Part shown: one piece after another, positions 6,222-24,160 of the stretch
How positions within the stretch are numbered: position 1 is the first letter of the stretch
How the letters are laid out: each line of letters starts with the position of its first letter
Source of the DNA: a virus
Virus record (IMG/VR): IMGVR_UViG_3300042402_006542
Location: 1 to 24,160 of that record
Reading direction: 5' to 3' (one strand)
Length of the DNA stretch: 24,160 nt
Translations under genes and position numbers: made by a program
Notes under the pieces: generated by a model
Database searches by the model: none
The model's input: only the letters and a program-made list of their open reading frames with translations
Told to the model about the DNA's origin: nothing

Positions 6222-8186
6222 ATGGCAGAATTTACATTTAACCTCAGCCAACTCGCAACTTCTGCCGCAGCCACTGGCAGCAGGATCAACACTGCTATCT
6301 TTGCCAAAACACCTGACTCAGAGTTAATCTACAACGGCGATGATTACATAGTATGGGACAGAACCAACCAAGAACGTCTGCGTCGCGGCTTGCCGGGTCT
6401 GGCCGCAATTGGACTACCTAGACCGCCTGAAGATACATCAGGCACACAGGCCTTGCCCGCCACAGGAACAACATCAACTCCCTCCACCGAGCAAGCCACA
6501 GTGTTTGCAGTCAAAGGGCCACCTGGACTCACAAGAGAACAAGCATTTGAAATTTTCAAGAAGCAAGTCAACACTGGTGCCTTGGTGGGTTTTAAATCTG
6601 GCGACAGTTTATCAGCTGCTACACAGGCAGCTGATGGTCTTGCTTCAGCACAGAGTGCCCTGCTGCAGGCACAGTCGGGGTTGACAGGTAGTATAGGTGC
6701 ATTTACAACAAGTTTGTCAGCATCAGGAGTTGATCTCGCAACTGGAAGAATTGCATCAGTTGACGCAGCATTTGCCAGGGGTGGCATCAATGGCGCTGCT
6801 GGATCATTCGTTAATGTAATTGGCAGCTTGCAGCCCGGTCTAGGCGCTGCTGGCGGCGCAGATCGGGGATCCCTTACTCAAACCGCAGCAGGCTTGACTG
6901 CGGCAGTGGGACCAGCTGTGTCGGCCGTGTCTGGCGCGGTGTCATTGATTCCGGGTGCTGCAGATGCAGGTAAACCCTTGGTCAATGCTGTGGTCACGCA
7001 GAGTTCCACAGCCATTGCAGCCATACAAACCATCAACAAGACCATCACAGAGATACCTGTAACCAACCCAATCAACACTGCTGATTTTACAAAATTTGCC
7101 AGCGGTGTCATTGGCACTGGTGCAGTCAGCGGAATCGGACCCATGGGAGTTGCTGAAGTCAACGGGGTACTAGCACAGGCCAAAAATTTAGTGGCACAGG
7201 ATGCAGCTGCCATCAGCAACGACAAAGGCCTTGGCACATTTGGACTTGACCTTGCACAACTAGAAGCGGCTGGCTATGTCAAGCCAGGTACTAGAGCGTT
7301 GGCAGAAAAAGGTGCCAGCTTGTTCTCCACAGTGATCAAAAGTCCTGCAGCCTGGACTGGCAAGGATGGCATAAAAAGCGCAACAGACCTCTTGAGCAAC
7401 CCTAGCAAACAAAGTCTCATACAGCAAGATCTTATGACCAAGGGTGTTGCCGACCTGGCCGCAGTGGGCGTGCCTGTGCAAAATCTATCAAGTCAAGGTA
7501 TTGCAGGCATGGCCTTGAATGCAGCCAAAGATTTGCCCAGTGCTGAAGCATTTGCCAAAGGATTGCCCATTCCCGGCGATGCCACAGGGCAAGTTCAAGC
7601 AGCATTTTCGAGTGCTGTGCGCGATGGTGCCTTTGCTGTGAATTTGGTTAATACCAAAATACCCACAGCTTTTAAACAGCAAGACATTCCGGTACCCCAG
7701 GTAGACACAGTTAATCGAGCCACTGTCGATGCTGCCAGCACTCGTGTTGTTGGAGATGAAAAAGTACCGGTGCCCAGTTATACCACGCCTGCCAATACAG
7801 TTGACTACACTTTTTACGTGGACAAAGCCAAAGCATTTATCAATCAACATGTTTTGCCCTTTGGTGCAAAATTACAGGCTTTGGACTCAAAGTTTGCTGC
7901 CTTGCAAAATCAACAAACCATTACTCAAGCTCAGTACAATGCTCTCGGTGCTGAACGCGATGCAATTCGCAACGATTACAGCGTCAACGGCATTCCCAAA
8001 GGACTAGAATTGGCTCAACTTTTTGATTCTTTACCTGAACTTGACAAGGCCGCGGTCAGAGCCCTGGGACTCAACATCGGCGAGATTGCCAAGACAGTAC
8101 AGGCTGCAATAATATATTCAAACCTACAAAAAGAAAGATTGTATGTGCTGAGCCAAAAAATTGAAGGGCGCGGAGAGGGTGAATAA
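6222..8186 (+). CDS. Ala/Gly-rich virion protein of unknown function (654 aa)
   Basis: I do not recognise a named family with certainty. The N-terminus (MAEFTFNLSQLATSA, then NGDDYIVWDRTNQERLRRGL) looks globular and is followed by a Pro/Thr linker at about 66-95. Residues 95-400 are extremely rich in Ala, Gly, Ser and Val with long helical stretches. A distinct block near 340-450 (FGLDLAQLEAAGYVKPGT, SPAAWTGKDGI, LLSNPSKQSLIQQDLM) resembles segments found in other phage structural proteins. The C-terminal 130 residues are charged and probably coiled coil. It lies between spike and gp25, 1 base after the spike stop, so it is probably a hub- or spike-associated virion protein. A chaperone or tape-measure role is possible but unsupported, and 654 residues is short for a myovirus tape measure. 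The ribosome site is weak. Confidence 0.8.
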   Translation: MAEFTFNLSQLATSAAATGSRINTAIFAKTPDSELIYNGDDYIVWDRTNQERLRRGLPGLAAIGLPRPPEDTSGTQALPATGTTSTPSTEQATVFAVKGPPGLTREQAFEIFKKQVNTGALVGFKSGDSLSAATQAADGLASAQSALLQAQSGLTGSIGAFTTSLSASGVDLATGRIASVDAAFARGGINGAAGSFVNVIGSLQPGLGAAGGADRGSLTQTAAGLTAAVGPAVSAVSGAVSLIPGAADAGKPLVNAVVTQSSTAIAAIQTINKTITEIPVTNPINTADFTKFASGVIGTGAVSGIGPMGVAEVNGVLAQAKNLVAQDAAAISNDKGLGTFGLDLAQLEAAGYVKPGTRALAEKGASLFSTVIKSPAAWTGKDGIKSATDLLSNPSKQSLIQQDLMTKGVADLAAVGVPVQNLSSQGIAGMALNAAKDLPSAEAFAKGLPIPGDATGQVQAAFSSAVRDGAFAVNLVNTKIPTAFKQQDIPVPQVDTVNRATVDAASTRVVGDEKVPVPSYTTPANTVDYTFYVDKAKAFINQHVLPFGAKLQALDSKFAALQNQQTITQAQYNALGAERDAIRNDYSVNGIPKGLELAQLFDSLPELDKAAVRALGLNIGEIAKTVQAAIIYSNLQKERLYVLSQKIEGRGEGE

Positions 8187-8203: not shown

Positions 8204-8581
8204 ATGGCACAAACATTCATTGGATTCAACACACAGGGGCAATTTAAAAAGTTCACTCTTACAGACTTTGAACTGATCAAACGTGACCTGTTGAACGCAT
8301 TCAACATCCGTCAAGGTCAGCTGCCAGGCCGACCGGCCTATGGCACAGTGCTTTGGGATTTTTTGTTTGAAAATCAATTGGAAGAATTACAAAATAGTAT
8401 AGTGACCGAGGTGCAACGAGTGGCCGGCGGCGACCCAAGAATCTATATCAGTGACACACAGGTGTTCCCACAAGAGAACGGCATACTGCTTGAGATTGAA
8501 CTACAGGTAATACCCAGTGACAATGCTGAACGACTAAGCATCTTCTTTGACTTACAACAGCGCAGTGCGTCTTACATATAA
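8204..8581 (+). CDS. gp25: Baseplate wedge protein gp25
   Basis: This 125-residue protein is gp25, the small wedge subunit conserved in all contractile injection systems (GPW/gp25 family, related to TssE in type VI secretion). In T4 it contacts gp6 and gp53 and touches the sheath to trigger contraction. Visible features are the N-terminal GFNTQGQFKKFTLTDFELIK segment, the family hallmark RPAYGTVLWDFLFE and the C-terminal ILLEIELQVIPSDNAERLSI strand pair. Its length is close to the 132 residues of T4 gp25. The ATG follows an ATAAATA box by 4 bases. The nearest purine-rich tract (GGAGAGGG, 8172-8179) is 24 bases upstream, too far for a normal Shine-Dalgarno contact. gp6 follows after a 47-base gap. 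Confidence 0.95.
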   Translation: MAQTFIGFNTQGQFKKFTLTDFELIKRDLLNAFNIRQGQLPGRPAYGTVLWDFLFENQLEELQNSIVTEVQRVAGGDPRIYISDTQVFPQENGILLEIELQVIPSDNAERLSIFFDLQQRSASYI

Positions 8582-8628: not shown

Positions 8629-11600
8629 ATGGCAAAAACAACTAGACAAACAGCGATATTTGGCGTAGAAGATTGGAAACAAATCTATCAAACCTATCGC
8701 GAAGCCGATTTTCAAAGTTATGACTTTGAAACTCTACGCAAAAGTTTTGTTGATTATCTGCGTTTGTATTATCCTGAAACATTCAACGACTACATTGAAT
8801 CATCAGAATACATTGCACTCCTGGATCTTATTGCATTCATGGGTCAAGCACTGGCCTTCCGCACAGATTTAAACACACGTGAAAACTACATAGACACGGC
8901 CGAGCGTCGTGATTCAGTGGTTCGCTTGGCCAATCTAGTGAGCTATACTGCCAAACGCAATATTGCAGCCCAGGGACTATTAAAAGTATTTTCTGTGCAG
9001 ACCACAGAAAACGTTGTGGACTATCAAGGCATAAATCTCAGCAATGTTACAGTGAACTGGGCTGACCCAACAAACCCAGACTGGCAAGAACAGTTTACAG
9101 CCATCATCAATGCCAGCTTGGTAGACACACAAAAAGTTGGCCGCCCTGGCAATCGTCAAACCATACTGGGTGTGAGAACTGACGAATATGGAATAAATTT
9201 GGTTCCTGGTTATCTGCCAGTGGTGCCTTACACTGCCACTGTAGATGGAGTAAGCATGCCGTTTGAGGCCATGTCTTCGACATCTGTGGGCCAAGATTTT
9301 GTGTATGAGCCTGCGCCGCAGGCCAATGTACCATTCAACATCTTGTTCCGCAACGATAGCCTGGGATTTCAAAGTGCCAATACTGGTTATTTCTTTATGT
9401 TCAAACAGGGCGTATTGCAAAACCAAGACTTCAACCTAGCAGAAAAAGTCAGCAACCGCACAGTGAACATCAATATTGAAGGGGTCAACAACGAAGATCG
9501 CTGGTTGTTTCAATTAGACAATGTTGGTAATGTCAGTCGCGAATGGGCTTACACAGAAAACATTTACTCTGCTGGTGCAGAACAAATAGGCACAACCTTG
9601 CGTCCTATCTATTCGGTGACTTCTAGAACCAATGATCAGATCACCATGGTGTTTGGTGACGGCGTGTTCTCTGAAATTCCAGTGGGCACTTTCCGTGCCT
9701 ATGTGCGTGCCTCAAACGGATTGCAATACATCATCAACCCTGAAGAAATGCAAGCGGTCACAATACCCATTAGCTATATCAGTCGCGCTGGCAATCTTGA
9801 AACACTCACATTCACCTGTGGTATTACACAACCTGTGAGCAACAGCCAGGCACGTGAGCCCATTGATGCAATCAAACAACGTGCTCCTGCTAGATACTAC
9901 ACACAGGACCGCATGGTCAACGGTGAAGACTATAATCTTTTTCCTTACACACAATACAACTCAATTGTGAAAAGCAAGGCACTTAACCGTGCCAGTATCG
10001 GCACCAGTCGTTATCTTGACTTGGTAGACAACACTGGCAAGTATTCTAGCACAAACAGTTTTGGTACTGATGGCGGCCTTTGGGAACAAAATATTCTTCC
10101 TACAATTTTGTTCTCATGGACCAATCGCAATGAAATTGCTGATTTTGTCGGCAACCAAGTTCAACCGGCCATTGCCGCAGCCACAGAAAGACAGTTTTAC
10201 TATTCTAACTTTCCTAGAGTGACTGAAAACAGCTTGCCCACATATGGTGGTACCACCTGGGTCACCGGTGCTTCATGGACTCAAAGTACCACATTGGCCA
10301 ACGAAACTACTGGATACTTCAAGAACGATGTGTACTCAATTCAATGGCCCACTGGCTCTCCCATACCAGTAGGTCCCACCACAACCACAGCATTCAAATA
10401 CGTTGCTGTGGGTAGTTTGATCAAATTTGCAGCGCCTGCTGGATACTACTTTGATCGCAACAACAAGTTGCAGCCAGGAACTCCCACAGCCGCAGATCAA
10501 AAGCTAGAAATCTGGGCCAGCCCCATCAGCATTGAAGGTTCAGGCTACAACAATGGTCTTGGTAATCTTCCATCTGGTGCCGGTCCCGTTGCACTCAATA
10601 ACTTTGTGCCCACAGGTGCCCTGGTTGACACAATTATTCCTTTGTTTATTACTGACCTTCCGGTATCAGTAGAGCAGGCCATTGCTGAACAAATTTTGTT
10701 AAATCGCAATTTTGGTCTTGGATATGACAGCAACGGAGACATCACTGGTACACCTTATTCGTGGTATCTGATCACCAGTACCAATCTTGCGCAAGACGCC
10801 ACCTGGAGTCAACAATACGCTGGCAACACATCGGGTACCAATTTGGATGCATCGTGGTTGATTCAGTTTGTGGTACAAAATCAAAACTACACAGCCACCT
10901 TCCGTGGCTTGGCCTACTACTTTGGGTCCGTGTTGCAGACACGTTTCTTCTACTATGACGGCGGTCAGATTTACGACAGCCGCACAGGTACAGTGATCAA
11001 AGATTTTATCAATGTTTTGGCTGTAAACACCCAGCCAGACAGCACTGATCATTTGCCAGGAGACATTGTTATGACCATTATTGGGCAACCGGTAGAAAGC
11101 GATGGTTATGTTGATGACTTCCAGGTGTTGGTGGGCTACCGCGACAACGACAACGATGGTGTGCCAGACAATCCAGACTTCTTTGACGAAATTGTTGCTC
11201 CCAACACTAACCCCACGCAAAAGTATGTTTACTTACAAAAGACCGTGGACTTTGACAATCTACAACGCTATCTTTTGGTTGAACCAGGTCGTGTGGTCAG
11301 CGACTATGGTACGTTGACTGAAATTGAATTACAGAAAAGTGCTTGGACTCCTGGGCAAATTTTCTATGCTTACACTGATCTTGCGTTCTATGAGTTGTCG
11401 GTGACTGTGACCGGAACACGAACATTGATTGATGTCACAGACGAGTGGATTGCCCGCACTGGTCGTCAATCTCTATATTATCAATATCGTCACAATGCAC
11501 CACTGACAACACGTATTGATCCAGGAACCACAAACATCATTGACTTGTATGTGGTAACTTTGAGCTATTACACAGCCTATCAAAATTGGATACGAGACAC

Positions 11601-12105
11601 CACTGGCACAGTTCCTGAGCCAGCAGTGCCTACCATTGACGAATTGTCAACTGAATATCAAGGCTTACAAAATTACAAAATGGTCAGCGATAACATCATT
11701 TTGAATTCAGTTGTATTCAAACCACTGTTTGGTGAAAAAGCCGCACAAGAATTGCGTGCCACAATCAAGGTAATCCGTGCACAAGGTTCTACAGCCAGCA
11801 CCAGCGAAATCAAGAGCAGTGTGGTGGCTGCAATGAACACTTATTTCAGCATTGACAAATGGAATTTTGGAGACACATTCTATTTTTCAGAACTTGCTGC
11901 ATATTTGCATAGAGAACTTGGAACCATTATCAGTTCAGTAGTGCTGGTACCACTCAACAGTCAAAAATACTTTGGTGACTTATACGAAATACGTTCAGCC
12001 CCCAATGAAATCTTTGTCAACGGTGCTACCATAAACAACATTGAAGTGATTGAAGCATTGACCAGTACCAACTTGCGTACTGCACCCGGTAGTGGAGTAA
12101 TTTAA
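8629..12105 (+). CDS. gp6: Baseplate wedge protein gp6 (enlarged)
   Basis: gp6 dimers form the ring that links the wedges of T4-like baseplates. The N-terminal block is clear: SYDFETLRKSFVDYLRLYYP, YIALLDLIAFMGQALAFRTD and RENYIDTAERRDSVVRLANL (residues about 30-110). The C-terminal block KMVSDNIILNSVVFKPLFGE through YFSELAAYLHRELGTIISSV (about 1017-1105) is also conserved and includes the gp6/gpJ-like helix pair. At 1158 residues it is far longer than T4 gp6 (660). Extra beta-rich material lies at about 535-790, and an acidic loop DNDNDGVPDNPD at about 839-850 resembles a thrombospondin type 3 calcium-binding loop. The start has AGAGG 9 bases upstream. The stop overlaps the next ATG (TAATG), so gp6 and the giant protein are probably translationally coupled. 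Confidence 0.93.
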   Translation: MAKTTRQTAIFGVEDWKQIYQTYREADFQSYDFETLRKSFVDYLRLYYPETFNDYIESSEYIALLDLIAFMGQALAFRTDLNTRENYIDTAERRDSVVRLANLVSYTAKRNIAAQGLLKVFSVQTTENVVDYQGINLSNVTVNWADPTNPDWQEQFTAIINASLVDTQKVGRPGNRQTILGVRTDEYGINLVPGYLPVVPYTATVDGVSMPFEAMSSTSVGQDFVYEPAPQANVPFNILFRNDSLGFQSANTGYFFMFKQGVLQNQDFNLAEKVSNRTVNINIEGVNNEDRWLFQLDNVGNVSREWAYTENIYSAGAEQIGTTLRPIYSVTSRTNDQITMVFGDGVFSEIPVGTFRAYVRASNGLQYIINPEEMQAVTIPISYISRAGNLETLTFTCGITQPVSNSQAREPIDAIKQRAPARYYTQDRMVNGEDYNLFPYTQYNSIVKSKALNRASIGTSRYLDLVDNTGKYSSTNSFGTDGGLWEQNILPTILFSWTNRNEIADFVGNQVQPAIAAATERQFYYSNFPRVTENSLPTYGGTTWVTGASWTQSTTLANETTGYFKNDVYSIQWPTGSPIPVGPTTTTAFKYVAVGSLIKFAAPAGYYFDRNNKLQPGTPTAADQKLEIWASPISIEGSGYNNGLGNLPSGAGPVALNNFVPTGALVDTIIPLFITDLPVSVEQAIAEQILLNRNFGLGYDSNGDITGTPYSWYLITSTNLAQDATWSQQYAGNTSGTNLDASWLIQFVVQNQNYTATFRGLAYYFGSVLQTRFFYYDGGQIYDSRTGTVIKDFINVLAVNTQPDSTDHLPGDIVMTIIGQPVESDGYVDDFQVLVGYRDNDNDGVPDNPDFFDEIVAPNTNPTQKYVYLQKTVDFDNLQRYLLVEPGRVVSDYGTLTEIELQKSAWTPGQIFYAYTDLAFYELSVTVTGTRTLIDVTDEWIARTGRQSLYYQYRHNAPLTTRIDPGTTNIIDLYVVTLSYYTAYQNWIRDTTGTVPEPAVPTIDELSTEYQGLQNYKMVSDNIILNSVVFKPLFGEKAAQELRATIKVIRAQGSTASTSEIKSSVVAAMNTYFSIDKWNFGDTFYFSELAAYLHRELGTIISSVVLVPLNSQKYFGDLYEIRSAPNEIFVNGATINNIEVIEALTSTNLRTAPGSGVI
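11143..11190 (+). other. Acidic calcium-binding-like loop in gp6
   Basis: The codons read D-N-D-N-D-G-V-P-D-N-P-D-F-F-D-E, which fits the DxDxDGxxD pattern of thrombospondin type 3 and EF-hand-like calcium loops. It sits in the C-terminal half of gp6 between two predicted strands. Calcium binding is an inference from the pattern. Confidence 0.5.
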
Positions 12106-15100
12106 TGGCAACAGTCCGCAGCGTAGATTTTCTTCCTGAGATTTTTCAGACTGATGCCAACAAACAATTTTTGGCAGCAACACTTGATCAACTGATACAA
12201 GAGCCCAAATTTAGAAAAACACAAGGCTTTATTGGTCGTCGTGTAGGCCCCGGCGTCAATCCCAACGACAAATACGTGGTAGAACCCACGGTCACAAGAA
12301 GTAACTACCAACTTGAACCTGGGGTGGTCAGTCTCGTGCCAGACACCGACACAATCAACAACGCCATTACCTATCCTGGACTCAATGATGCTGTGACTTT
12401 CCAAGACGGCAACGGTAGTCGACCTGACAGACTGTATTCCAGCGAATACTATACCTGGGATCCGTTTATTGATTTTGATACTTTCATAAACTTCAGTCAA
12501 TACTATTGGGTTCCAAATGGCCCCGATGTAGTGGATGTAAGTGCTACTGAGATTCCAACCACTGATAATTTTGTAGTAACCAGCACCAACAATGTGTACA
12601 ATTTTTCAGGCGTCAACGGCAACAGCCCAGTAATCGAACTGGTACGTGGCGGCAGTTACACATTTCAAGTAACTGATCAATTTTGGATTCAGAGTGCGCC
12701 CGGCATTGCAGGCACGATTCCGGCCACCCCAAATATCAGCAGTCGAGATGTTTATGGAGTAGCCAACAATGGAGAAGATTCTGGCACTGTGGTATTCAAT
12801 GTGCCCCAGAAAAATGCGCAGAGTTTTTACTACACCTCTCTTGACAGCATTGGTACAATTGACCTAGTGACTGAATTGGGTTTTGATGATATCAACGGGC
12901 AACCTTTGGTTGATTTTATTCTTGCCAACGGCGGCATTGATGGCACAACCAACTTAGATAATCGCACACTGGTTTTTCTCAACAACCCTGCTTACACACA
13001 AAAATATCAAATCACCTACAACACTGTTGGTGACGTAATTTATTTGCAAGTTTCATTGCTGGCCAATATCAATAATTTAGAAAAGTGGACCACCAGTTAC
13101 GGAGCAGTTTACAGCAGTACCCAATGGTACAAAGATGAGGCTGGAGTTATTCGTAGTATTCCGCTGTTGAGCGCCATTCAAGATACACTGTATTACCAGT
13201 CTGGCACAAACTCAGAAATTTTTGGCCGCATCACACTGATCGAACCTGGCGCCAGCAGCGTACTAGACGTTGACACCATAATTGGTAGAAAAACTTATAC
13301 CAGCCCCAACGGTGTGGCATTTACCAACGGACTCAAGGTAAGATTCACTGGAGATGTAGTACCCATCAGTTACAAGTCAGGCACCTCAAGTTTTGAGTGC
13401 ACTGCCACTGAAGCCAACACAAACTACATCACATATTATGATGCTGGCAGTTTATATGTAGGCCAACAAGTGGTGTTTTTGACCCCCACACTTGGGGGAC
13501 TTGACGCTGGCACAACATATTATGTAAGATCAATTGCAGCCAGCGGGATCAAATTCACAGTCAGTGCAGTTCCGGGCGGCCCCGCAGTGACCTTGCAAAA
13601 CGGCACAGGTGCCATGAACGCAATTGGCATCAGCAATCACGAATACTACGTGAGTGGTGTTGGAATTGCAATTGAGTTGTTGCCAGTGACAGACTTTGTT
13701 GTGCCCGAAACCTATGTTGAAGACTACAATGATAGTACCATTGCAGTAGAGCCCGCTGATCCTGATTATCTAACAATCAGCCGCGCCAGCCGAGATTTAA
13801 ATGCATGGACTAGAAGCAATCGTTGGTTCCACGTCAGCGTGTTAAATGCCACGGCAGAATATAACAACACTGCTGCCAACCTTGACAATAATCTTCGTGC
13901 CAAGCGTCCAATTATTCAGTTCCGTCCTGGAGTACGTTTGTGGAACATGGGAACTCAAGGCAAAGCACCTGTAGACATCATTGATTTCACAGAAACTGAT
14001 GCATTTTCAAATGTGGAAGGATCTACTGGTTACACAACCAATGGCTACTCCTTGGTTGAAGGATCAAGAGTTATATTTGCTGCTGATGAAGATTTGTCTG
14101 TGCGCAACAAGATATATGTGGTGACCTTTGCTGTTCCAGACACGATTCCTCCTTTGATTGCTCAACCAGTGATTGTGTTGACCGAAGCCGCTGATGGCGC
14201 AGTTGAATTAGATGAATCAACTGTGTGTTTAAATGGCAACACTATTGCTGGCAAAACATTTTGGTATGATGGCGCTGACTGGATTGAGGCTCAGCAGAAA
14301 ACCAAGGTTCAACAAGCACCTTTGTTCAACATCTATGATGTGGACGGTGTAAGTTTTGGTGACAGAGTCAAATATCAATCCAGCAACTTTGTGGGATCAA
14401 AGCTGTTTAGTTATGCAGTGGGTGACACCACCATTCTTGACCCAGTGCTGCAATTTCCCTTGCAATATTTGAACATCAACAACGTGGGAGACATTGTTTT
14501 TGACAACAATTTGTATGTTGACAGTTTCACTTACACTATAGACAATGTCAGTACAGTTACTCCAATCAGTTCAGGTGCGGCCAGAGAATACGCAACACGA
14601 ACTGCATACGCCAAGTTAATTGGTTGGCAAACCGCAGTGGTTGAACAACAAATTTATCAACAATTTCAGTTCAACTACACTGGCAGTCGACTTCAACTTG
14701 ATATTGCAGTAACCCCGCAATCATCTATTGCAATGCCAGTAATCAAGGCCTATATTGGCGGACAATTTATTGATCCAAGCCAATATACCTATACCGTTGG
14801 CGACGCCAGCACAACCATTACCTTGAGCAACACATATCTGCCTACAGATGTAATTGAAATTTTGGCACTAAGTGATCAGACCAGCAAGGTGGGGTTTTAC
14901 CAAGTACCAAACAATTTAGAAAATAATCCTCTCAATGCCAACAGCTCATCGTTTACCTTGGGCACAATCCGTACTCACTACGAGAGCATTTGCGAAAACT
15001 TATTGGCGTTGACTGGGCCTATCAACGGATCTAACAACAGTCGTGATCTTGGAAACATTGTACCATACGGTTTGGTAATACTTCAACAAAGTAGTCCGCT

Positions 15101-18100
15101 GACTTTGGCCGGCTACTTTATGCGCAGTTCTGCTTACAATATTTTTGCGTCATTGCAGTACAGCAGTCGTGAGTACACCAAATTCAAAGCGCAGATGTTG
15201 GATGCGGTGCTGAATCAAAACAACATTGCATTTAGAACCACAGCCAGTATTCTAGACGAAGCCATACAAGATATTACCCTAGGCAAGTTAAACACTCAGC
15301 CCTTCTACTGGAGCGACATGATTCCTCAAGGGGTAACTTCTTACAGCAATACCTACAATATTGGTCTAGTCATCAACTATGTTTTTGACACAGTACAAGT
15401 TTACAATTACACATCTTCCAACTATTTAGGATTGTGTGTGTATCTAAACGATCAAATTCTAACTCGTGACAAAGATTATGTGGTGGCCACAAACGGTCCT
15501 AGAATCACAATCACCACAACTCTTGTCACCGGCGACACAGTTACCATCAACGAGTACGGCGCCACTTACGGAAGCTTTGTGCCCAACACTCCTAGCAAAA
15601 TGGGTTTGTACCCAGCCTGGGAGCCAGAGATTACCACGCTTGTGACCAGCAATGGCACAGGTGAATTCATAATTGGGCATGATGGAAGCTCAACTCCAGT
15701 GTTTGGTGACATTCGCGATCAAGTGCTGCTGGAATTTGAAACTAGAATTTACAGCAACATTAAGCAAGATGGCAATCCTGTTCCTCTCACAGTGGAAGAT
15801 GTATTGCCGGGTCAGTTTCGTGATACCGGTTACAGCTTTGAAGAAGTTAACTCAATTTTTGGTTCTGATCTGTTGAGTTTCTGTGGTTGGAACAAATTGG
15901 ATTTCAAAACTCAGACGTTCAGTGCGACCAACGAGTTTACATGGAACTACAGCAATACCACCAACCGACTCAACAACGAAAACTTGTTGGGCGCTTGGCG
16001 CGGAATTTATCGTTATTTCTACGACACACAGCAGCCAAGCTATACTCCTTGGGAGATGCTGGGTTTCACAATTGAACCCGACTGGTGGCAAGATCGTTAT
16101 GGACCTGCGCCATATACTGGGGATAACTTGGTGTTGTGGGATGACCTAGAAGCAGGCTTGGTTGCTGATCCCGTTGCACCTTACATTCGTCCAGAATATG
16201 CTCGTCCTGGTCTTACATCGGTGATTCCCACTGGTCCGGAAGGTGAATTATTGAGCCCCCTCAACTCAGTTGTGGGCGTGGTGCCATTCAATCAAAATGT
16301 CACATCTAAATACCAGAAGAGCTGGGCAATCGGCGATGGCGGCCCAGTTGAAGCATCGTGGTGGAATTCAAGTTCATATCCATTCTCGGTAATGCATGTG
16401 TTGGCAGTTACTCGTCCGGCAAAATTCTTTGCACTGTTTGCTGACAGAGATTTGTACAAGTTTGACACTGACTACAATCAATATCTCTACAATGGTCGCT
16501 ATAGATTAGATGCCAACGGTGTTGAAGTATATGGCAATGGCGTCAGCAAAGCCAGTTACATCAACTGGATTGTGGATTACAACAGACAAACTGGAATTGA
16601 CTCAACCGATCTGTTGACTGCAGATCTCAAGGCCCTGGATGTGAGATTGTGCTATCGTATGGCCAGCTACTCAGACAAACAGTACATCAAGTTGATTACT
16701 GAAAAGTCCAGCCCCAACAGTACCAATACAACACTGACCATTCCTGATGAAAGCTACAACATTTTGTTGTATAAAAATCAACCGTTTGATCAAATCAAGT
16801 ACAGCAGTGTAGCGGTGCAAAAGGTCGACGGCGGCGGATTTGCTGTGTTTGGATATGGTACATCGCAGCCTTATTTTGAAATACTACAAAGTCAAGCAGT
16901 TGGTCGATTGCAAGAATACAGCTCAGGCGGCATCACTGTTCGTGTACCAACTTTCTACACTGATGCTGTGGTGCAAGTTCCTTACGGATATGTGTTTGTC
17001 AACGAAACTGCTGTGAGTGACTTTTTGTTGAGTTACGGAAAGTTGTTGGAAAAACAAGGATTAACGTTTGACAACATGGTCAATGGTTATGAGCTCAGCT
17101 GGCCAAGAATGGTAAATGAATTTTTGTACTGGAGCCAACAGGGCTGGAGTACAAATGCCATTATCAATTTGAATCCCTTGGCCGAAGGGTTGACTGTGAC
17201 CCGTCCCGGTGCAGTGGTGGATGGCATTGTGACCGAAACCACTGAAAATCTACTGTTGGATCAAAACTCAAACGAAATCCCCACACGCTCTTTGAATGTG
17301 GTTCGTCTGGGCAACACTTTTACTATACAACCGTTGTCCACACAAAGCATCAGCTATATCAATTTGAGATTTACCAATTTTGAACACATGATGGTGTTGG
17401 ACAACCAAAGTGTGTTTGGCGACCTCATATATGATCCAATCACTGGTGCAAGACAAAGCAGACTGACACTGGTGGCTGTAACCACCAGTGACTGGAATGG
17501 CAGCGTAGACACGCCTGGATTTATTTTGAATCAGGACAACGTTCAAGAGTGGACCGGACTTAAGACGTACCCCAAGGGAGAGATTGTCAAATACAAGAAT
17601 GTTTATTGGTCAGCACTTAAAATTGTGCAACCTAGCGCAAAGTTCAATTTCAATGACTGGGCCCAGAGTGATTACACTCAAATTGAATTGGGGTTGTTGC
17701 CTAACCTTGCCAACAAAGCCGATCAATTGGCCAACAGCTACAATATCAACGATGCCAATATCGAAAGTGACAACGATTTATTGAGTTATGGGCTAATTGG
17801 TTTCAAGCCACGGCAGTATCTAGCCGCACTAAATCTCGATGATGTCAGTCAGGTCAATGTGTATCGTCAGTTCTTGGGCACCAAGGGTACTATACTGGCA
17901 GCAGAATTATTCAAATCGGCCAACCTTGGCAAAGAGGCAGCTGATTACACAATCTATGAAAATTGGGGAGTTCAACGAGCAGTTTACGGTGCCAATGCTA
18001 ACCGTAGTTTCTTTGAATTGAGATTAAATCGTGCATTGTTGAGCAGCAATCCCAGCTTGGTAGAAGTAGTTGTGCCTCAGCAATCAAGCCAAGCTGATCA

Positions 18101-21100
18101 AACAGTATTGTTGTCTGATGTGTGGCGCTCCAGCTACAATCTCACCAGTACCAATATTTTGCCTACCACTACCGAACTGCCCACTGACATAGGATTGCCA
18201 ACAGCTGGATATGTGAGTTTGGACGATGTTGATATCACAGTATTTGACATCAACAACACAGACAGTCTTGCGGCCAACATTGATCAAATTGAAGTGGGAA
18301 CCAGCATCTGGGTGGCCAAGATCAACGATTACGACTGGAACATTTATCGTGCCCAAGCAGTGCCTGGTCAAATACAGCATGTTTGTGACAATTTAAACGG
18401 AACCAGCCGAGTAATTTTCAACAGTCAGCACGGGTTAAAAGCTGGTGACAAACTGATCATCAAGTTCTTTGACAGTGAGATCAACGGCGTGTATCAAGTA
18501 CTCAACGTTCCATCACTTGACACAGTGAACATTGCATTTACTTTCACAAGCAATCGTGCAGTGGCCAATGGCACAGGTCTAGGATTTACCTTGCAAACCA
18601 TGCGGGTAGCTCAGGCCAGCGATGTGGGCGACCTGTCATATGCATTGAATATTTTGCCCGGCGCCAAAGTTTGGGTAGACGACAACGGCTCGGGTCTATG
18701 GGAAGTGCTTCAGAAGAACAATGTATTTTCAAGCATTGTTACGTTGAACCCAGAGTTGCTTGATGCCAGCGAACAATACGGAGCCAGCGTAGCACAGGCC
18801 AGAAACAAAGTGGCTGCCTTGGTGGGTAGTCCACGCTATGGTTTTGCTAGTGGCACCGCCCGGGGAGCCATCTACGTTTATGTCAAGAGTTTCAGCGATC
18901 AATACACTCCAGTAAGTCCGTTGGGCACTGGTGATGCCATACTCACCCTGGATACCACAGGTCTTCGCGGATACGGCAATGCCATAGACTTTGGCAATCA
19001 AACTTATGCCGTGGCCGGTGCCAGCGCCAGCCTGGGTTCGGCAGGGCAAGCCGACAACGGCTATGCAGTTGTGATTTATCGTGATCCAGTGTTGGGTGTT
19101 CCTGGATCTATTCCTTATGGGCAATCGCAATTGTTAACTCAACCTGCAGGCTACGGAACACTATTGACTGGTGCAGGTGAATTTGGTTACAGCGTGGCCA
19201 TGAGCTTGGACGAACGTTGGATGTATATTGGTGCCCCGGGGTTGAATCAGGTGCATGCTTATGGTTATGTCGACTGGCAAGATCAGTTAATCAGAACCTT
19301 GGCTGATGGTACCACTTTATTATATGCCATCGCTGACAATATACAAATCAACAACAAGTACCAACTCAAAGTAACCCTCAATGGACAGGTGCAAACGGTT
19401 GACGTAGACTACACTATTGACAACAATTTCAACATTGTTACCTTTGTAAACACTCCTGGCGTGACCACTGCTGGTAGTTTTATTTCTGGACAAACATATA
19501 CTATTTTAAGTGTGGGCACTACTAACTTTGTTGCAATTGGTGCAAGTTCAAACACTGTGGGAGTTGAGTTCATTGCCACTGGCTCAGGATCTGGTACTGG
19601 CACTGCACTTGCATCAACCTTGATTGAATTTGCAAGATACAACAGTTTTCAAATTCCTTATACTGCATCAACATATGATCTTGATGATGACATTGATGCT
19701 GATGGTCGTAGAGTTGGATTATTCACCGCTACAAACATTTACTCTTTCAGCATCAAAGTTAACGAGTCGCTGTTGCGTCCCAACATCGATTACACATTCT
19801 CTGGAACCACAGTGACCTTTACTGGATCCTACAGCCTAACCGACATTATTGTGGTCAGCGCCAAAGGATACTTTGAATATGTAGATACAATTGACTCTAG
19901 CATGGTCACTGGCGGTCTAACTGCTGGTGACAGATTTGGTCATTCAGTGTCATGCACCACAGACGGCCGCCAAGTCATGATTGGAACCCCAGAACGTACC
20001 ATTGATGGTGAAGTCCAGGCAGGTACAGTTTATGTATTTGATCGCAATGTACAAAAGTTCATATACGGCTCGGATCCCTCCAGTGTGAGCTTCACAGTGC
20101 TGGGCGGAACGCCTACTGCACCAGTCAGTGTATTGGTCAACAATGAATTCTTTATCAACCAAGACAACAGCGTGATCAATGCTCCCAACTCGTTTACTGT
20201 GTCTGGTGACACTGTGACCATATTGGGCGATCTGCAAATTGGTGACATAATTGAAATTGAAACCAATCAATTTCAGCAGGTGCAACAAGTTGACCAACAT
20301 GTGACAGCTGACTTCAGTAACTTTGGCCAAGCTGTACAAATTTGCAGTAACAATTGCAGTTTGTATGTTGGCGAACCGCAGAGCAGTCAACAAATATTCA
20401 AAGGTGGTGTTGTTGAACGTTTTGTAAATCAAAGCAGAGTATATGGCACTATCACAGCCACCGTGGCCAATCCAGCTTTGACTGCCGGGGACACTATTAG
20501 AATTGACAACATAGATGTTGAGGTTCCTGTGGCGCAAACTGTAGCCAGCCTGGCCACAGCGATCAATGCCGCAGTTCCAAATGTTCTAGCCACAGTCAGC
20601 AGCACTGGTTATCTCACAATCAGCGTCAAGAATTCAGCAGCAGCCGCTCCTTTCAACAAGGTACAAGTGGCACCCGGTTCAGTAGGATCAACATTTGCTG
20701 ATTTTGGGTTCGAAACGTTTGTATGGACACAGAACATTACCAGCCCATACCCTGTACAATACGCAGGATTTGGCGGCGCAATCAGCATAAATGATTCAGC
20801 TGAAAACTTGGTGGTAGGCGCACCTCAAGGCACAATCTATCTTGAAACGGTGTTTGATGATGGTACCACAGTGTTTGACGCTGGCAGCACAATATTTTTC
20901 TCGGTAATTGTGCAGAGCGGTGCAATTTACACATTTGATTATTTGCCCAGCAGCTCGCTGACTGTGACCAACCCTGGTAAGTTTGTGTTTGGCCAACAAA
21001 TCAACAACAATCTTGTTGGGCAGTATGATATGTTTGGTGCTGCGGTTGACTATACTTCGGGCGTGTTAATGGCCGGCGCACCAAAAAATGATGCCGGTGA

Positions 21101-24100
21101 CAGCGATGCAAACTTTGGAGCTGTGTTTGTGTTTGAAAACCCAACTCAATCACCGGCTTGGAGTGTGATAGAGATTCAACAACCCACAGTGGACATTAGA
21201 CTGTTGAATTCAGTGTTTTTCTTTGACAGCATCACCAGCGCACGAACTGAATTCTTGGATTTTATAAATCCATTGCAAGGAAAAATATTGGGCGCTGCCC
21301 GAGCCAACATTGACTACGTGGGCGCAGTGGACCCTGCGGCCTATAATGTGGGACCCGCAAACCTCAAAGGCAGCACATGGTTCGCTGATCATGTAGGAGA
21401 AATTTGGTGGGATATCAGTTCAGTTAGATTCATTGATCCCAATCAAGACAGCATAGTGTACGCCAGCCGACGCTGGGCACAGTTGTTCCCTGGTAGCGAA
21501 GTTGATGTGTACCAGTGGGTTCAAAGCACAACACCGCCATCAACTTACACAGGCGAAGGCATACCACTGAACACGGTTTCCTATACAGTCAACACTAATT
21601 TGTCACAAGATGGAACATTTGCTACCTATTATTATTTCTGGGTGCGTGGCATCACAGTCACAGCCACGCAGCTAGGCAAAACATTGCCGGCCAGCACTGT
21701 AGCATCTTACATTGCTGATGCCAAGGCCAGTGGCATTCCCTACATGGCACCCATAAATGCCAACACAATTGCATTGTACAACTGTGCTGATCTTATTTCA
21801 GCCAGCGACACAGTAATCAGCATTGAATATGATCGTGAATTTACCAACGATAATGTACACGTTGAATACGAACTGATTCCTCAAGACCGTGCTGATGGTT
21901 TTTTGAGTGACAATTTATATCGTAAACTACAGGACAGTTTCTGCGGGGTAGACACCTTTGGTAACAAAGTACCTGATCCTAACCTGGGACCCGCTGAACG
22001 ATATGGAGTACAGTTCCGCCCGCGTCAATCAATGTTCGTGGATCGTTTTGCTGCGTTAAAAAATTATCTAAAACGTGCAAATGCAGTGCTGGCACAGTAT
22101 CCAATCACTGAAGATAAGTCGTTTAATCTGTTGAACAGCAGTGACCCAATTCCGTCGCAGACCGAGATTGTTGATGCTGTCACCGTCACCAATTGGAACC
22201 TTCAGGTTGCCAACTTGGAAATACTGGGATTCCAAACACCGTTCTGGAGTGATCCCTTGGGATCAATACCACTGGGTTACAAGTATCTTGTGACCACTGA
22301 CAGCAGTCAACGAGGATTGTGGACCATTTACACTGTTCAAGAAAGCGATACTGCGCCCAACACTAGAGAATTGGTTCTTTCCAAGGTACAAGGGTACAAT
22401 ACTCCAGACTATTGGAGCTACATCAATTGGTATCGTCCTGGATACAATTCCAGCACCAAAGTTGTTGCTGAGGTTGCCAATTATGCATCCTTGAGCACAC
22501 TGACTGTCACAGTTGGCAGCAGTGTAAAAGTCACAGCCAATGCTCAAGGAAAATTTGAAATCTATCTTAGAACCGATCTGGGTTGGGAACGAGTTGGGTT
22601 GCAAGATGGCACCATTGAATTCAGCGCGGAACTATATGACTATGCACTGGGCAGATTTGGATTTGACGTAGAAGTATTTGATGCACAGTATTTTGATCAA
22701 GAGCCTGTGATAGAAACAAGAAAAATTATTCAAGCCATCAACGAAGAACTATTTGTTGGCGACTTAGAAATACAGCGCAACAAGTTGTTGGTGTTGATGT
22801 TTAACTTTGTGTTGAGTGAATTCTCTGCACCAGAGTGGCTGGTCAAGACATCGCTAATTGACGTTGATCATAGAATTCGCCAACTGATACCGTATCAAAA
22901 CTACGTGCGAGACAACCAAGAATTTGTAAGTGACTACATCCAGGAAGTCAAACCATATCACGTGACCATTAGAGAATTTAACTTGCTGTACAACGGTTTT
23001 GATGAATTTTTTGGTGATATAACTGACTTTGATTTGCCGGCCTACTACAATACTTCGCTGGAAATACCTAAGTTTACCAGTCCTATATTGTTACCATACA
23101 ATAACGGAACAGCATTTAATTCTAGCACCAACATCGAAAGTGACGTACCATCAACCAGCGCATTGTGGTCAACTTGGCCGTACAATCAGTGGTACAGCAA
23201 TTATTTGTTGTCGTTGGAAAGTGTACAAATTATTGATGGTGGATCGGGTTATACACAACCCCCAGTGGTGATAATCACAGGAGGTGCAACAGAACCGGCC
23301 AAAGCCACCGCTGTAATCAATAGTATTGGACAAGTTGTTGCAGTAAATGTTACCAACTCGGGATCAGGCTATATTCAAACCCCAACAATAACATTTGATG
23401 GTGGCAACGGTGTTGCTGCCCGGGCATATGCAGTAATGAACAACAGCCTAGTACGCAGTTTCCGCACAGTGATCAAGTATGATCGTTTTCAGTATTTTTC
23501 AGACATAGCATCTTGGGAACCAAATCAAATTTACAATCCCGGTGCCCTGGTACGTTACGATGATCGCGTGTGGCAAGCCAGCGCAGCAACGCCAGTTACT
23601 GGCCCCACGTTCAATCTTGAAGATTGGACCCTGATCCCAGCACGACAACTAAGTGGCGTTGATCGTACCATGGGTTACTATGTGCCTGGAGTCAATCAAC
23701 CAGGACTTGAGTTGCCATTGTTGATCGACGGTGTTGATTATCCTGGGGTACAGGTGTACGGCGATTACTTCTTGAACAACCCAACATCAATAGACGCCAA
23801 CTACTCTAGCGAATTTACAGATGTAACACTGGGAACATCGCCCACAGACATCAATGTGGACGGCGGCGAGTTTATTGGCTTGTACGAAGGCCACGCTCCT
23901 GAAGAATTGGTCAACGGCGCAGAATTTGACACCCTTGATTTCCGCGTGTACACCAGACCCGGTGCTGACTGGAATCGCGACGGTCACGGTTTCCAGTGGA
24001 GCAGCGTTCGTTACAGTTTCGACCCTACCATTGAAACCGACTACAGCTGGGCAGGAATTACACAGCATCCAGTTCAGGTTCTGGTGAGCAATATTACCAC

Positions 24101-24160
24101 TGGTACTGACCTAGCACCAGATGTCAACTACACCGTTGATTGGGTAAATCAAACAGTTTC
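12105..24160 (+). CDS. Giant modular baseplate-associated structural protein (3' partial, at least 4018 aa)
   Basis: One frame stays open from this ATG to the right edge, giving 4018 codons without a stop. GGAG at 12094-12097 lies 7 bases before the ATG. The N-terminus (SVDFLPEIFQTDANKQFLAA, then KTQGFIGRRVGPGVNPND) and internal blocks such as PWEMLGF with DWWQDRYGPAPYTG (about 1315-1339), GFKPRQYLAALNLDDVSQ (about 1899), WWDISSVRF to DVYQWVQS (about 3100-3141), EVKPYHVTIREF (about 3614) and EELVNGAEFDTLDFRVYT (about 3933) resemble the giant virion proteins of marine T4-like phages. Position after gp6 matches T4 gp7 (1032 residues), so a wedge role is likely but unproven. Modules seen: cupredoxin-like (173-255), inserted beta domain (429-507), CBM5/12-like (1816-1857 and 3804-3846), a seven-repeat FG-GAP propeller (2225-3013) and GSGYT repeats (3707-3779). 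No enzyme motif was recognised. Confidence 0.88.
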   Translation, partial: MATVRSVDFLPEIFQTDANKQFLAATLDQLIQEPKFRKTQGFIGRRVGPGVNPNDKYVVEPTVTRSNYQLEPGVVSLVPDTDTINNAITYPGLNDAVTFQDGNGSRPDRLYSSEYYTWDPFIDFDTFINFSQYYWVPNGPDVVDVSATEIPTTDNFVVTSTNNVYNFSGVNGNSPVIELVRGGSYTFQVTDQFWIQSAPGIAGTIPATPNISSRDVYGVANNGEDSGTVVFNVPQKNAQSFYYTSLDSIGTIDLVTELGFDDINGQPLVDFILANGGIDGTTNLDNRTLVFLNNPAYTQKYQITYNTVGDVIYLQVSLLANINNLEKWTTSYGAVYSSTQWYKDEAGVIRSIPLLSAIQDTLYYQSGTNSEIFGRITLIEPGASSVLDVDTIIGRKTYTSPNGVAFTNGLKVRFTGDVVPISYKSGTSSFECTATEANTNYITYYDAGSLYVGQQVVFLTPTLGGLDAGTTYYVRSIAASGIKFTVSAVPGGPAVTLQNGTGAMNAIGISNHEYYVSGVGIAIELLPVTDFVVPETYVEDYNDSTIAVEPADPDYLTISRASRDLNAWTRSNRWFHVSVLNATAEYNNTAANLDNNLRAKRPIIQFRPGVRLWNMGTQGKAPVDIIDFTETDAFSNVEGSTGYTTNGYSLVEGSRVIFAADEDLSVRNKIYVVTFAVPDTIPPLIAQPVIVLTEAADGAVELDESTVCLNGNTIAGKTFWYDGADWIEAQQKTKVQQAPLFNIYDVDGVSFGDRVKYQSSNFVGSKLFSYAVGDTTILDPVLQFPLQYLNINNVGDIVFDNNLYVDSFTYTIDNVSTVTPISSGAAREYATRTAYAKLIGWQTAVVEQQIYQQFQFNYTGSRLQLDIAVTPQSSIAMPVIKAYIGGQFIDPSQYTYTVGDASTTITLSNTYLPTDVIEILALSDQTSKVGFYQVPNNLENNPLNANSSSFTLGTIRTHYESICENLLALTGPINGSNNSRDLGNIVPYGLVILQQSSPLTLAGYFMRSSAYNIFASLQYSSREYTKFKAQMLDAVLNQNNIAFRTTASILDEAIQDITLGKLNTQPFYWSDMIPQGVTSYSNTYNIGLVINYVFDTVQVYNYTSSNYLGLCVYLNDQILTRDKDYVVATNGPRITITTTLVTGDTVTINEYGATYGSFVPNTPSKMGLYPAWEPEITTLVTSNGTGEFIIGHDGSSTPVFGDIRDQVLLEFETRIYSNIKQDGNPVPLTVEDVLPGQFRDTGYSFEEVNSIFGSDLLSFCGWNKLDFKTQTFSATNEFTWNYSNTTNRLNNENLLGAWRGIYRYFYDTQQPSYTPWEMLGFTIEPDWWQDRYGPAPYTGDNLVLWDDLEAGLVADPVAPYIRPEYARPGLTSVIPTGPEGELLSPLNSVVGVVPFNQNVTSKYQKSWAIGDGGPVEASWWNSSSYPFSVMHVLAVTRPAKFFALFADRDLYKFDTDYNQYLYNGRYRLDANGVEVYGNGVSKASYINWIVDYNRQTGIDSTDLLTADLKALDVRLCYRMASYSDKQYIKLITEKSSPNSTNTTLTIPDESYNILLYKNQPFDQIKYSSVAVQKVDGGGFAVFGYGTSQPYFEILQSQAVGRLQEYSSGGITVRVPTFYTDAVVQVPYGYVFVNETAVSDFLLSYGKLLEKQGLTFDNMVNGYELSWPRMVNEFLYWSQQGWSTNAIINLNPLAEGLTVTRPGAVVDGIVTETTENLLLDQNSNEIPTRSLNVVRLGNTFTIQPLSTQSISYINLRFTNFEHMMVLDNQSVFGDLIYDPITGARQSRLTLVAVTTSDWNGSVDTPGFILNQDNVQEWTGLKTYPKGEIVKYKNVYWSALKIVQPSAKFNFNDWAQSDYTQIELGLLPNLANKADQLANSYNINDANIESDNDLLSYGLIGFKPRQYLAALNLDDVSQVNVYRQFLGTKGTILAAELFKSANLGKEAADYTIYENWGVQRAVYGANANRSFFELRLNRALLSSNPSLVEVVVPQQSSQADQTVLLSDVWRSSYNLTSTNILPTTTELPTDIGLPTAGYVSLDDVDITVFDINNTDSLAANIDQIEVGTSIWVAKINDYDWNIYRAQAVPGQIQHVCDNLNGTSRVIFNSQHGLKAGDKLIIKFFDSEINGVYQVLNVPSLDTVNIAFTFTSNRAVANGTGLGFTLQTMRVAQASDVGDLSYALNILPGAKVWVDDNGSGLWEVLQKNNVFSSIVTLNPELLDASEQYGASVAQARNKVAALVGSPRYGFASGTARGAIYVYVKSFSDQYTPVSPLGTGDAILTLDTTGLRGYGNAIDFGNQTYAVAGASASLGSAGQADNGYAVVIYRDPVLGVPGSIPYGQSQLLTQPAGYGTLLTGAGEFGYSVAMSLDERWMYIGAPGLNQVHAYGYVDWQDQLIRTLADGTTLLYAIADNIQINNKYQLKVTLNGQVQTVDVDYTIDNNFNIVTFVNTPGVTTAGSFISGQTYTILSVGTTNFVAIGASSNTVGVEFIATGSGSGTGTALASTLIEFARYNSFQIPYTASTYDLDDDIDADGRRVGLFTATNIYSFSIKVNESLLRPNIDYTFSGTTVTFTGSYSLTDIIVVSAKGYFEYVDTIDSSMVTGGLTAGDRFGHSVSCTTDGRQVMIGTPERTIDGEVQAGTVYVFDRNVQKFIYGSDPSSVSFTVLGGTPTAPVSVLVNNEFFINQDNSVINAPNSFTVSGDTVTILGDLQIGDIIEIETNQFQQVQQVDQHVTADFSNFGQAVQICSNNCSLYVGEPQSSQQIFKGGVVERFVNQSRVYGTITATVANPALTAGDTIRIDNIDVEVPVAQTVASLATAINAAVPNVLATVSSTGYLTISVKNSAAAAPFNKVQVAPGSVGSTFADFGFETFVWTQNITSPYPVQYAGFGGAISINDSAENLVVGAPQGTIYLETVFDDGTTVFDAGSTIFFSVIVQSGAIYTFDYLPSSSLTVTNPGKFVFGQQINNNLVGQYDMFGAAVDYTSGVLMAGAPKNDAGDSDANFGAVFVFENPTQSPAWSVIEIQQPTVDIRLLNSVFFFDSITSARTEFLDFINPLQGKILGAARANIDYVGAVDPAAYNVGPANLKGSTWFADHVGEIWWDISSVRFIDPNQDSIVYASRRWAQLFPGSEVDVYQWVQSTTPPSTYTGEGIPLNTVSYTVNTNLSQDGTFATYYYFWVRGITVTATQLGKTLPASTVASYIADAKASGIPYMAPINANTIALYNCADLISASDTVISIEYDREFTNDNVHVEYELIPQDRADGFLSDNLYRKLQDSFCGVDTFGNKVPDPNLGPAERYGVQFRPRQSMFVDRFAALKNYLKRANAVLAQYPITEDKSFNLLNSSDPIPSQTEIVDAVTVTNWNLQVANLEILGFQTPFWSDPLGSIPLGYKYLVTTDSSQRGLWTIYTVQESDTAPNTRELVLSKVQGYNTPDYWSYINWYRPGYNSSTKVVAEVANYASLSTLTVTVGSSVKVTANAQGKFEIYLRTDLGWERVGLQDGTIEFSAELYDYALGRFGFDVEVFDAQYFDQEPVIETRKIIQAINEELFVGDLEIQRNKLLVLMFNFVLSEFSAPEWLVKTSLIDVDHRIRQLIPYQNYVRDNQEFVSDYIQEVKPYHVTIREFNLLYNGFDEFFGDITDFDLPAYYNTSLEIPKFTSPILLPYNNGTAFNSSTNIESDVPSTSALWSTWPYNQWYSNYLLSLESVQIIDGGSGYTQPPVVIITGGATEPAKATAVINSIGQVVAVNVTNSGSGYIQTPTITFDGGNGVAARAYAVMNNSLVRSFRTVIKYDRFQYFSDIASWEPNQIYNPGALVRYDDRVWQASAATPVTGPTFNLEDWTLIPARQLSGVDRTMGYYVPGVNQPGLELPLLIDGVDYPGVQVYGDYFLNNPTSIDANYSSEFTDVTLGTSPTDINVDGGEFIGLYEGHAPEELVNGAEFDTLDFRVYTRPGADWNRDGHGFQWSSVRYSFDPTIETDYSWAGITQHPVQVLVSNITTGTDLAPDVNYTVDWVNQTV
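12621..12868 (+). other. Cupredoxin-like domain in the giant protein
   Basis: The segment reads PVIELVRGGSYTFQV, then FWIQSAPG, then VYGVANNGEDSGTVVFNVP and SFYYTSLDSIG. This is the pattern of a cupredoxin-like beta sandwich common in large marine phage structural proteins. The His/Cys/Met ligands that bind copper in true cupredoxins are not visible, so a structural role is more likely than redox activity. Confidence 0.5.
13389..13625 (+). other. Inserted beta domain in the giant protein
   Basis: About 79 residues, from FECTATEANTNYITYYD through GGLDAGTTYYVRSI and GIKFTVSA to LQNGTGAMNAI, look inserted within a host domain whose flanking strands are FTGDVVPISYKSG and NHEYYVSGVGIAIELLPV. I recall the same TTYYV / F-T-S-A pattern as a recurrent module in marine phage tail proteins. 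Confidence 0.5.
17550..17670 (+). other. CBM5/12-like chitin-binding module 1
   Basis: The residues follow the small chitin-binding (ChtBD3, CBM5/12) pattern: W-T-G, then YPKGEIVKYKNVYWSA, and a closing FNFNDWAQ. The spacing of the aromatic residues (W, Y, Y, W, W) fits the family. Carbohydrate binding is inferred. Confidence 0.5.
18777..21141 (+). other. Seven FG-GAP-like repeats: probable beta-propeller
   Basis: Seven repeats share the pattern (Y/F)G-x-(S/A)-(V/I), a hydrophobic strand ending in G-(A/T/E/S)-(P/S), and a closing G-x-(V/I)-(Y/F) strand. Starts are 18777 (YGASVA, LVGSPRYG, GAIYVYV), 18966 (GYGNAI, VAGAS, GYAVVIY), 19179 (FGYSVAM, YIGAPG), 19929 (RFGHSV, MIGTPE, GTVYVF), 20316 (NFGQAV, YVGEPQ, GGVVERF), 20763 (GFGGAI, VVGAPQ, GAIYTF) and 21027 (MFGAAV, MAGAPK, GAVFVF). 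Seven is the number of blades in integrin alpha-type FG-GAP propellers. Insertions of about 217, 90 and 111 residues separate blades 3-4, 4-5 and 5-6. Confidence 0.75.
19473..19612 (+). other. GTT-F-x-AIGASSNTVG module inserted in the propeller
   Basis: The segment GQTYTILSVGTTNFVAIG, then ASSNTVGVEFIATGSGSG and a Thr/Ala tail, is a Gly/Thr-rich module that I recall as widespread in marine phage tail and virion proteins. Here it lies between propeller blades 3 and 4, splitting a short beta module. Confidence 0.6.
23223..23440 (+). repeat. GSGYT-type tandem beta repeat in the giant protein
   Basis: Two units, IIDGGSGYTQPPVVIITGG and VTNSGSGYIQTPTITFDGG, each followed by an A-x-A-x-(A/V) strand, form a tandem repeat of about 40 residues. 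This GSGYxxxP pattern is frequent in phage tail and bacterial surface proteins. Confidence 0.65.
23514..23640 (+). other. CBM5/12-like chitin-binding module 2
   Basis: W-E-P-N-Q, then YNPGALVRYDDRVWQAS and a closing FNLEDWTLI, match the small CBM5/12 fold better than module 1. It directly follows the GSGYT repeats. The sugar it would bind cannot be told from sequence. Confidence 0.55.

Follow-up and report, generated by a model that had tools for sequence, protein, structure and literature searches.

The DNA analyzed here (the window) comprises a 24,160-base virus record and ends within a giant open reading frame. On its plus strand lie, in order, a gp5-like baseplate hub gene (4700–6220; phrog_13211, E 9e-40), a gp25-like baseplate wedge gene (8204–8581; phrog_43, E 1.9e-9), a gp6-like baseplate wedge gene (8629–12105; phrog_10646, E 5e-279, and phrog_219, E 1e-21) and the giant frame itself, which is open from 12105 to 24158 and past the window end and provides the first 4018 codons of a virion protein (phrog_10938, virion structural protein, E 6.5e-289). 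A 654-aa ORF between the hub and gp25-like genes (6222–8186) has no PHROG or NCBIfam match. In the relative L005 the giant protein is complete at 4727 aa, and its propeller, described below, is 100% identical to that of the window. An NCBIfam search and direct PDB sequence searches with the giant protein and with its PA5oct homolog returned no matches. Near the end of the window, residues 3703–3785 of the giant protein form repeats matched by phrog_460 and phrog_1922.

The first-pass annotation had called this product a giant phage baseplate protein. Its position behind the gp25-like and gp6-like genes, together with a note that the PA5oct homolog was found by ESI-MS/MS, makes a baseplate-region protein likely, and from gene order we infer that the propeller is also located at the baseplate. 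No homology to T4 gp7 was detected (hhalign of the giant family against the single gp7 sequence gave a probability of 0.1%), and the two proteins agree only in following a gp6-like gene. The place of the giant protein in the wedge is therefore positional only.

Residues 2223–3025 of the giant protein form the propeller, with seven FG-GAP-type blades that follow one another in frame over residues 2223–3013 of the plus-strand product. Blade 1 (18771–18890, residues 2223–2262) was placed by the repeat profile and by strands, as were strands 1–3 of blade 3 (19170–19274, residues 2356–2390), strands 1–3 of blade 5 (20316–20435, residues 2738–2777), blade 6 with its additional long 2–3 loop (20760–20948, residues 2886–2948) and blade 7 (residues 2973–3013), which together with its fourth strand WSVIEIQ spans 21021–21179. 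Strands 1–3 of blade 4 (19923–20045, residues 2607–2647) are the best FG-GAP_2 stretch. The diverged blade 2 (18966–19085, residues 2288–2327) was placed by position and strands; the repeat profile does not detect it in the window itself, although the same profile detects it in many relatives. Profile-profile comparison related most window blades to one another, blade 2 excepted, and some relatives (L286, L314 and L332) carry seven evenly spaced blades. Pfam FG-GAP_2 (PF14312) scores 45.7 bits against the window segment, where the cut-off is 23, and has a match in every one of the 12 close relatives examined (lowest E-value 9e-17). The classical FG-GAP family PF01839, against which a search had been proposed, stays below its cut-off in the Pfam scan of the window and relatives.

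A relaxed cage motif is present in blades 1, 3, 5, 6 and 7 of 74–78 of 78 sequences, in blade 2 of 49/78 and in blade 4 of 56/78, compared with 6% in shuffled blades. The strict cage motif as defined in PMC3192720 was found in 0/78 sequences for each blade, the relaxed pattern being the one that most sequences have. DxDxDG calcium loops, which integrin alpha subunits carry in blades 4/5–7, were likewise absent from blades 1–3 and 5–7 (0/78) and occurred in blade 4 of only 3/78. Bacterial integrin-type propellers, by contrast, have seven FG-GAP repeats with conserved calcium sites (PMC3192720); the phage propeller lacks these sites, is viral and is placed in a hairpin.

Structure prediction gave the same arrangement. 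AlphaFold modeled the window propeller with a pTM of 0.81 and strands in seven sets of four (alignment depth, 52 sequences), and the natural relative L300, which is almost free of inserts, with a pTM of 0.80 (24 sequences). In Foldseek the window model matched integrin alpha5 first (E 1.4e-8). With the L300 model, ranks 1–49 against the PDB were all integrin alpha chains (best E 5.8e-14). TM-scores to integrins were moderate, at about 0.5–0.6. The family sequence profile likewise placed an integrin, alpha M, first in the PDB (E 8.6e-5). Integrin alpha propellers such as those of alpha5, alphaX and alphaV, which gave the best PDB matches by both fold and sequence profile, consist of seven four-stranded FG-GAP blades as the phage propeller does. 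They differ from it in that the phage domain has neither calcium loops nor the strict cage motif, is embedded mid-protein in a scaffold and has large inserts in its 3–4 loops.

We considered whether the fold could be another beta-propeller, of WD40, YVTN or similar type, with a convergent resemblance to FG-GAP. The missing strict cage motif and calcium loops would agree with this, as would the WD40-type propellers that appear lower in the Foldseek list of the insert-bearing window model. Since the 49 best PDB fold matches of L300 are without exception integrin alpha chains, the sequence profile also finds integrins first and FG-GAP_2 exceeds its cut-off, we regard this as very improbable. A resemblance that arose by chance or from low complexity, without an underlying domain, has no evidence in its favor, is contradicted by the FG-GAP_2 matches, the blade positions, the AlphaFold model of the window, the tree described below and the Foldseek result with L300, and has a negligible probability. 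The claim of seven FG-GAP-like repeats in order is thus confirmed at essentially the positions first given, and it is well supported that the segment is a complete, predicted seven-bladed FG-GAP_2 (integrin-type) beta-propeller. Structure prediction and profile searching, the two tests by which the first-pass annotation said this could be refuted, both came out in its favor.

Three large insertions interrupt the blades, as had been described. They had been assigned to the loops between blades 3 and 4, 4 and 5, and 5 and 6; the predicted strands instead put them inside blades 3, 4 and 5, each in the loop between strands 3 and 4. Insert 1 (19293–19868, plus strand as for the others) consists of two beta-modules, 1a and 1b, around a small module, and the two are related to each other (hhalign probability 96%). 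The small module (residues 2458–2507, with the sequence GQTYTILSVGTTNFVAIGASSNTVG...) shares 73% identity across 37 aa with a cyanophage S-TIM54 virion protein and is possibly a mobile module. Insert 2 (20064–20246) was delimited from the alignment of relatives and from strands. Insert 3 (20430–20717), delimited by PF07196 and strands, is a Flagellin_IN-like module whose match to PF07196 (E 3.5e-4) is just under the cut-off of that family. All three inserts would lie on the face formed by the 1–2 and 3–4 loops, which bears out the proposal that they project from one face even though they sit within blades. Over 77 relatives the insert regions vary from 152 to 262, 88 to 189 and 106 to 161 aa for inserts 1, 2 and 3, with blade lengths nearly constant. 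Some natural propellers (L286, L300, L314 and L332) are nearly free of large inserts, and L286 and L300 lack insert 1.

The scaffold forms a hairpin (WxV...W), and its turn houses the entire propeller. The scaffold strand before it (KVWVDD...WEVLQK, 18666–18716, plus strand) was identified from AlphaFold strands and from the same motif in propeller-less relatives. In the window the propeller is bounded by VWVDD...WEVLQK on one side and WSVIEIQQPTVD on the other. At the downstream end the fourth strand of blade 7 continues directly into conserved scaffold (21159–22124, plus strand). We infer that the propeller can sit in the hairpin with the scaffold undisturbed because both of its ends lie together. 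In the giant virion proteins of PA5oct, RaK2, Atu_ph07 and SCTP-2 the scaffold is homologous to either side of the site and there is no propeller; the site is either short or, in SCTP-2 and Atu_ph07, filled by other sequence. The hairpin motif is kept with a short turn in PA5oct and in the propeller-less loci L327, L330, L351 and L356. GxGY repeats similar to those at residues 3703–3785 occupy the site in Atu_ph07 and L305. Reading of the SCTP-2 sequence gave the impression of a LamG-like domain in the slot, which we dropped as it has no Pfam match.

The distribution of the propeller was determined with the downstream scaffold as the only bait, which is blind to the propeller. In two such scans of 80 loci each, nearly all loci had at least five blades, the exceptions being contigs cut close to the bait match. 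A third scan, centered on PA5oct, contained both states. Blade counts are bimodal, with 32 loci having none and nearly all others at least four. On a tree of 80 rows built from this downstream flank the propeller state changes twice, compared with a mean of 21.4 for shuffled states, and the insert-length class changes eight times; the tree is a quick one with SH-aLRT support only, and because it is unrooted the direction of the propeller change is inferred. The propeller is retained in 55 of 56 rows of its clade. The sole propeller-less row inside the clade, L346, has other sequence in the site and, by reading, an SGNH-hydrolase-like stretch upstream. A frequently swapped slot, as the other contents in SCTP-2, Atu_ph07 and L305 could suggest, was rejected because the tree needs only those two changes of propeller state. 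Like the fold and the insertion site, this inheritance is a computed result: a phage clade apparently gained the propeller once and later decorated it with variable loop modules.

On the tree, the cultured relatives that we could place (PA5oct, RaK2, Atu_ph07 and SCTP-2) group with the loci that lack the propeller. Searches with tblastn using the window and L300 propellers found no deposited phage with this propeller inside the giant protein, and all the giant phages with a propeller-bearing giant protein that we encountered are represented by viral contigs from the environment. In Sinorhizobium phage Phosso (PV764938.1, 57900–68978; L364), an annotated protein of ~3.7 kaa matches the L300 propeller, and the record has eight such places, possibly a tandem series of FG-GAP propellers.

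Phages are already known to encode propellers and FG-GAP proteins. The Atu_ph07 gp320 "hemagglutinin" and the cyanophage S-TIM5 gp054 virion protein are FG-GAP-type propellers of tailed phages like that of the window (TM 0.73 and 0.64 to the window model, by target), but they are encoded by stand-alone genes of ~400 aa, whereas the window propeller is part of a giant wedge-region protein. Another phage propeller is phiKZ gp131C, which has seven blades, lies at the baseplate periphery of a jumbo phage and is suspected in host binding (PMC4901313); it was not among the best 50 fold matches listed for the window and L300 models. In the collection of papers that we searched, none combined FG-GAP, phage and baseplate.

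With respect to function, a receptor-binding or wedge-stabilizing platform had been proposed. Conservation of the blades is close to that of the scaffold (87% versus 89–90% identity in L009 and 70% versus 70–74% in L018), and the inserts are the variable part. These values are therefore more in keeping with a rigid docking or display platform than with a rapidly evolving receptor tip, and of the two proposed roles the data lean toward the structural one. Insert identity is below that of blades and scaffold but not clearly below that of other variable stretches of the giant protein, so a binding role of the inserts is weakly supported.

Integrin propellers bind ligands. The propeller could be a primary receptor-binding domain whose face recognizes a glycan or protein of the host, and host contact is possible. 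Phage propellers serve or are suspected in host recognition, as in phiKZ gp131C and in phi11 Gp45, which has a propeller domain in a baseplate protein (PMC4901313). Gp45, however, is a trimeric receptor-binding protein with five blades rather than seven, and the blades described here are not hypervariable; we consider this role rather unlikely. A purely architectural propeller, one that widens or locks the wedge via neighboring wedges with neither blades nor inserts contacting the host, would explain why the blades evolve at about the scaffold rate and why the domain is retained in nearly every row of its clade. Repeated changes in insert length would be unfavored in a buried contact, though, and the inserts weakly resemble surface modules (CBM_X2 in 8/12 relatives and Flagellin_IN in 5/12, both below cut-off). 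This explanation is a serious candidate, but we consider it less likely than not.

The reading that we favor with some confidence is a display platform with docking, acquired once in a hairpin of the giant wedge-region protein. The ancestor of the clade would have acquired the propeller in a beta-hairpin turn, where it would most likely form a rigid disc that lacks integrin-type calcium loops and projects from the baseplate. Its conserved blades may hold the disc and contact a neighboring virion protein, and the modules in the 3–4 loops of blades 3–5, on one face, would provide a variable contact surface for fibers or the host surface. More tentatively, we propose that a jumbo phage lineage, of which we found no cultured member, acquired an integrin-type propeller without calcium loops in cis in its giant wedge-region protein and uses it to display modules in an evolvable way, gaining and losing them repeatedly on one face. 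Given the apparent single gain on the tree and the relatives with a short site, the effect of such a large plug-in domain on baseplate architecture becomes directly comparable.
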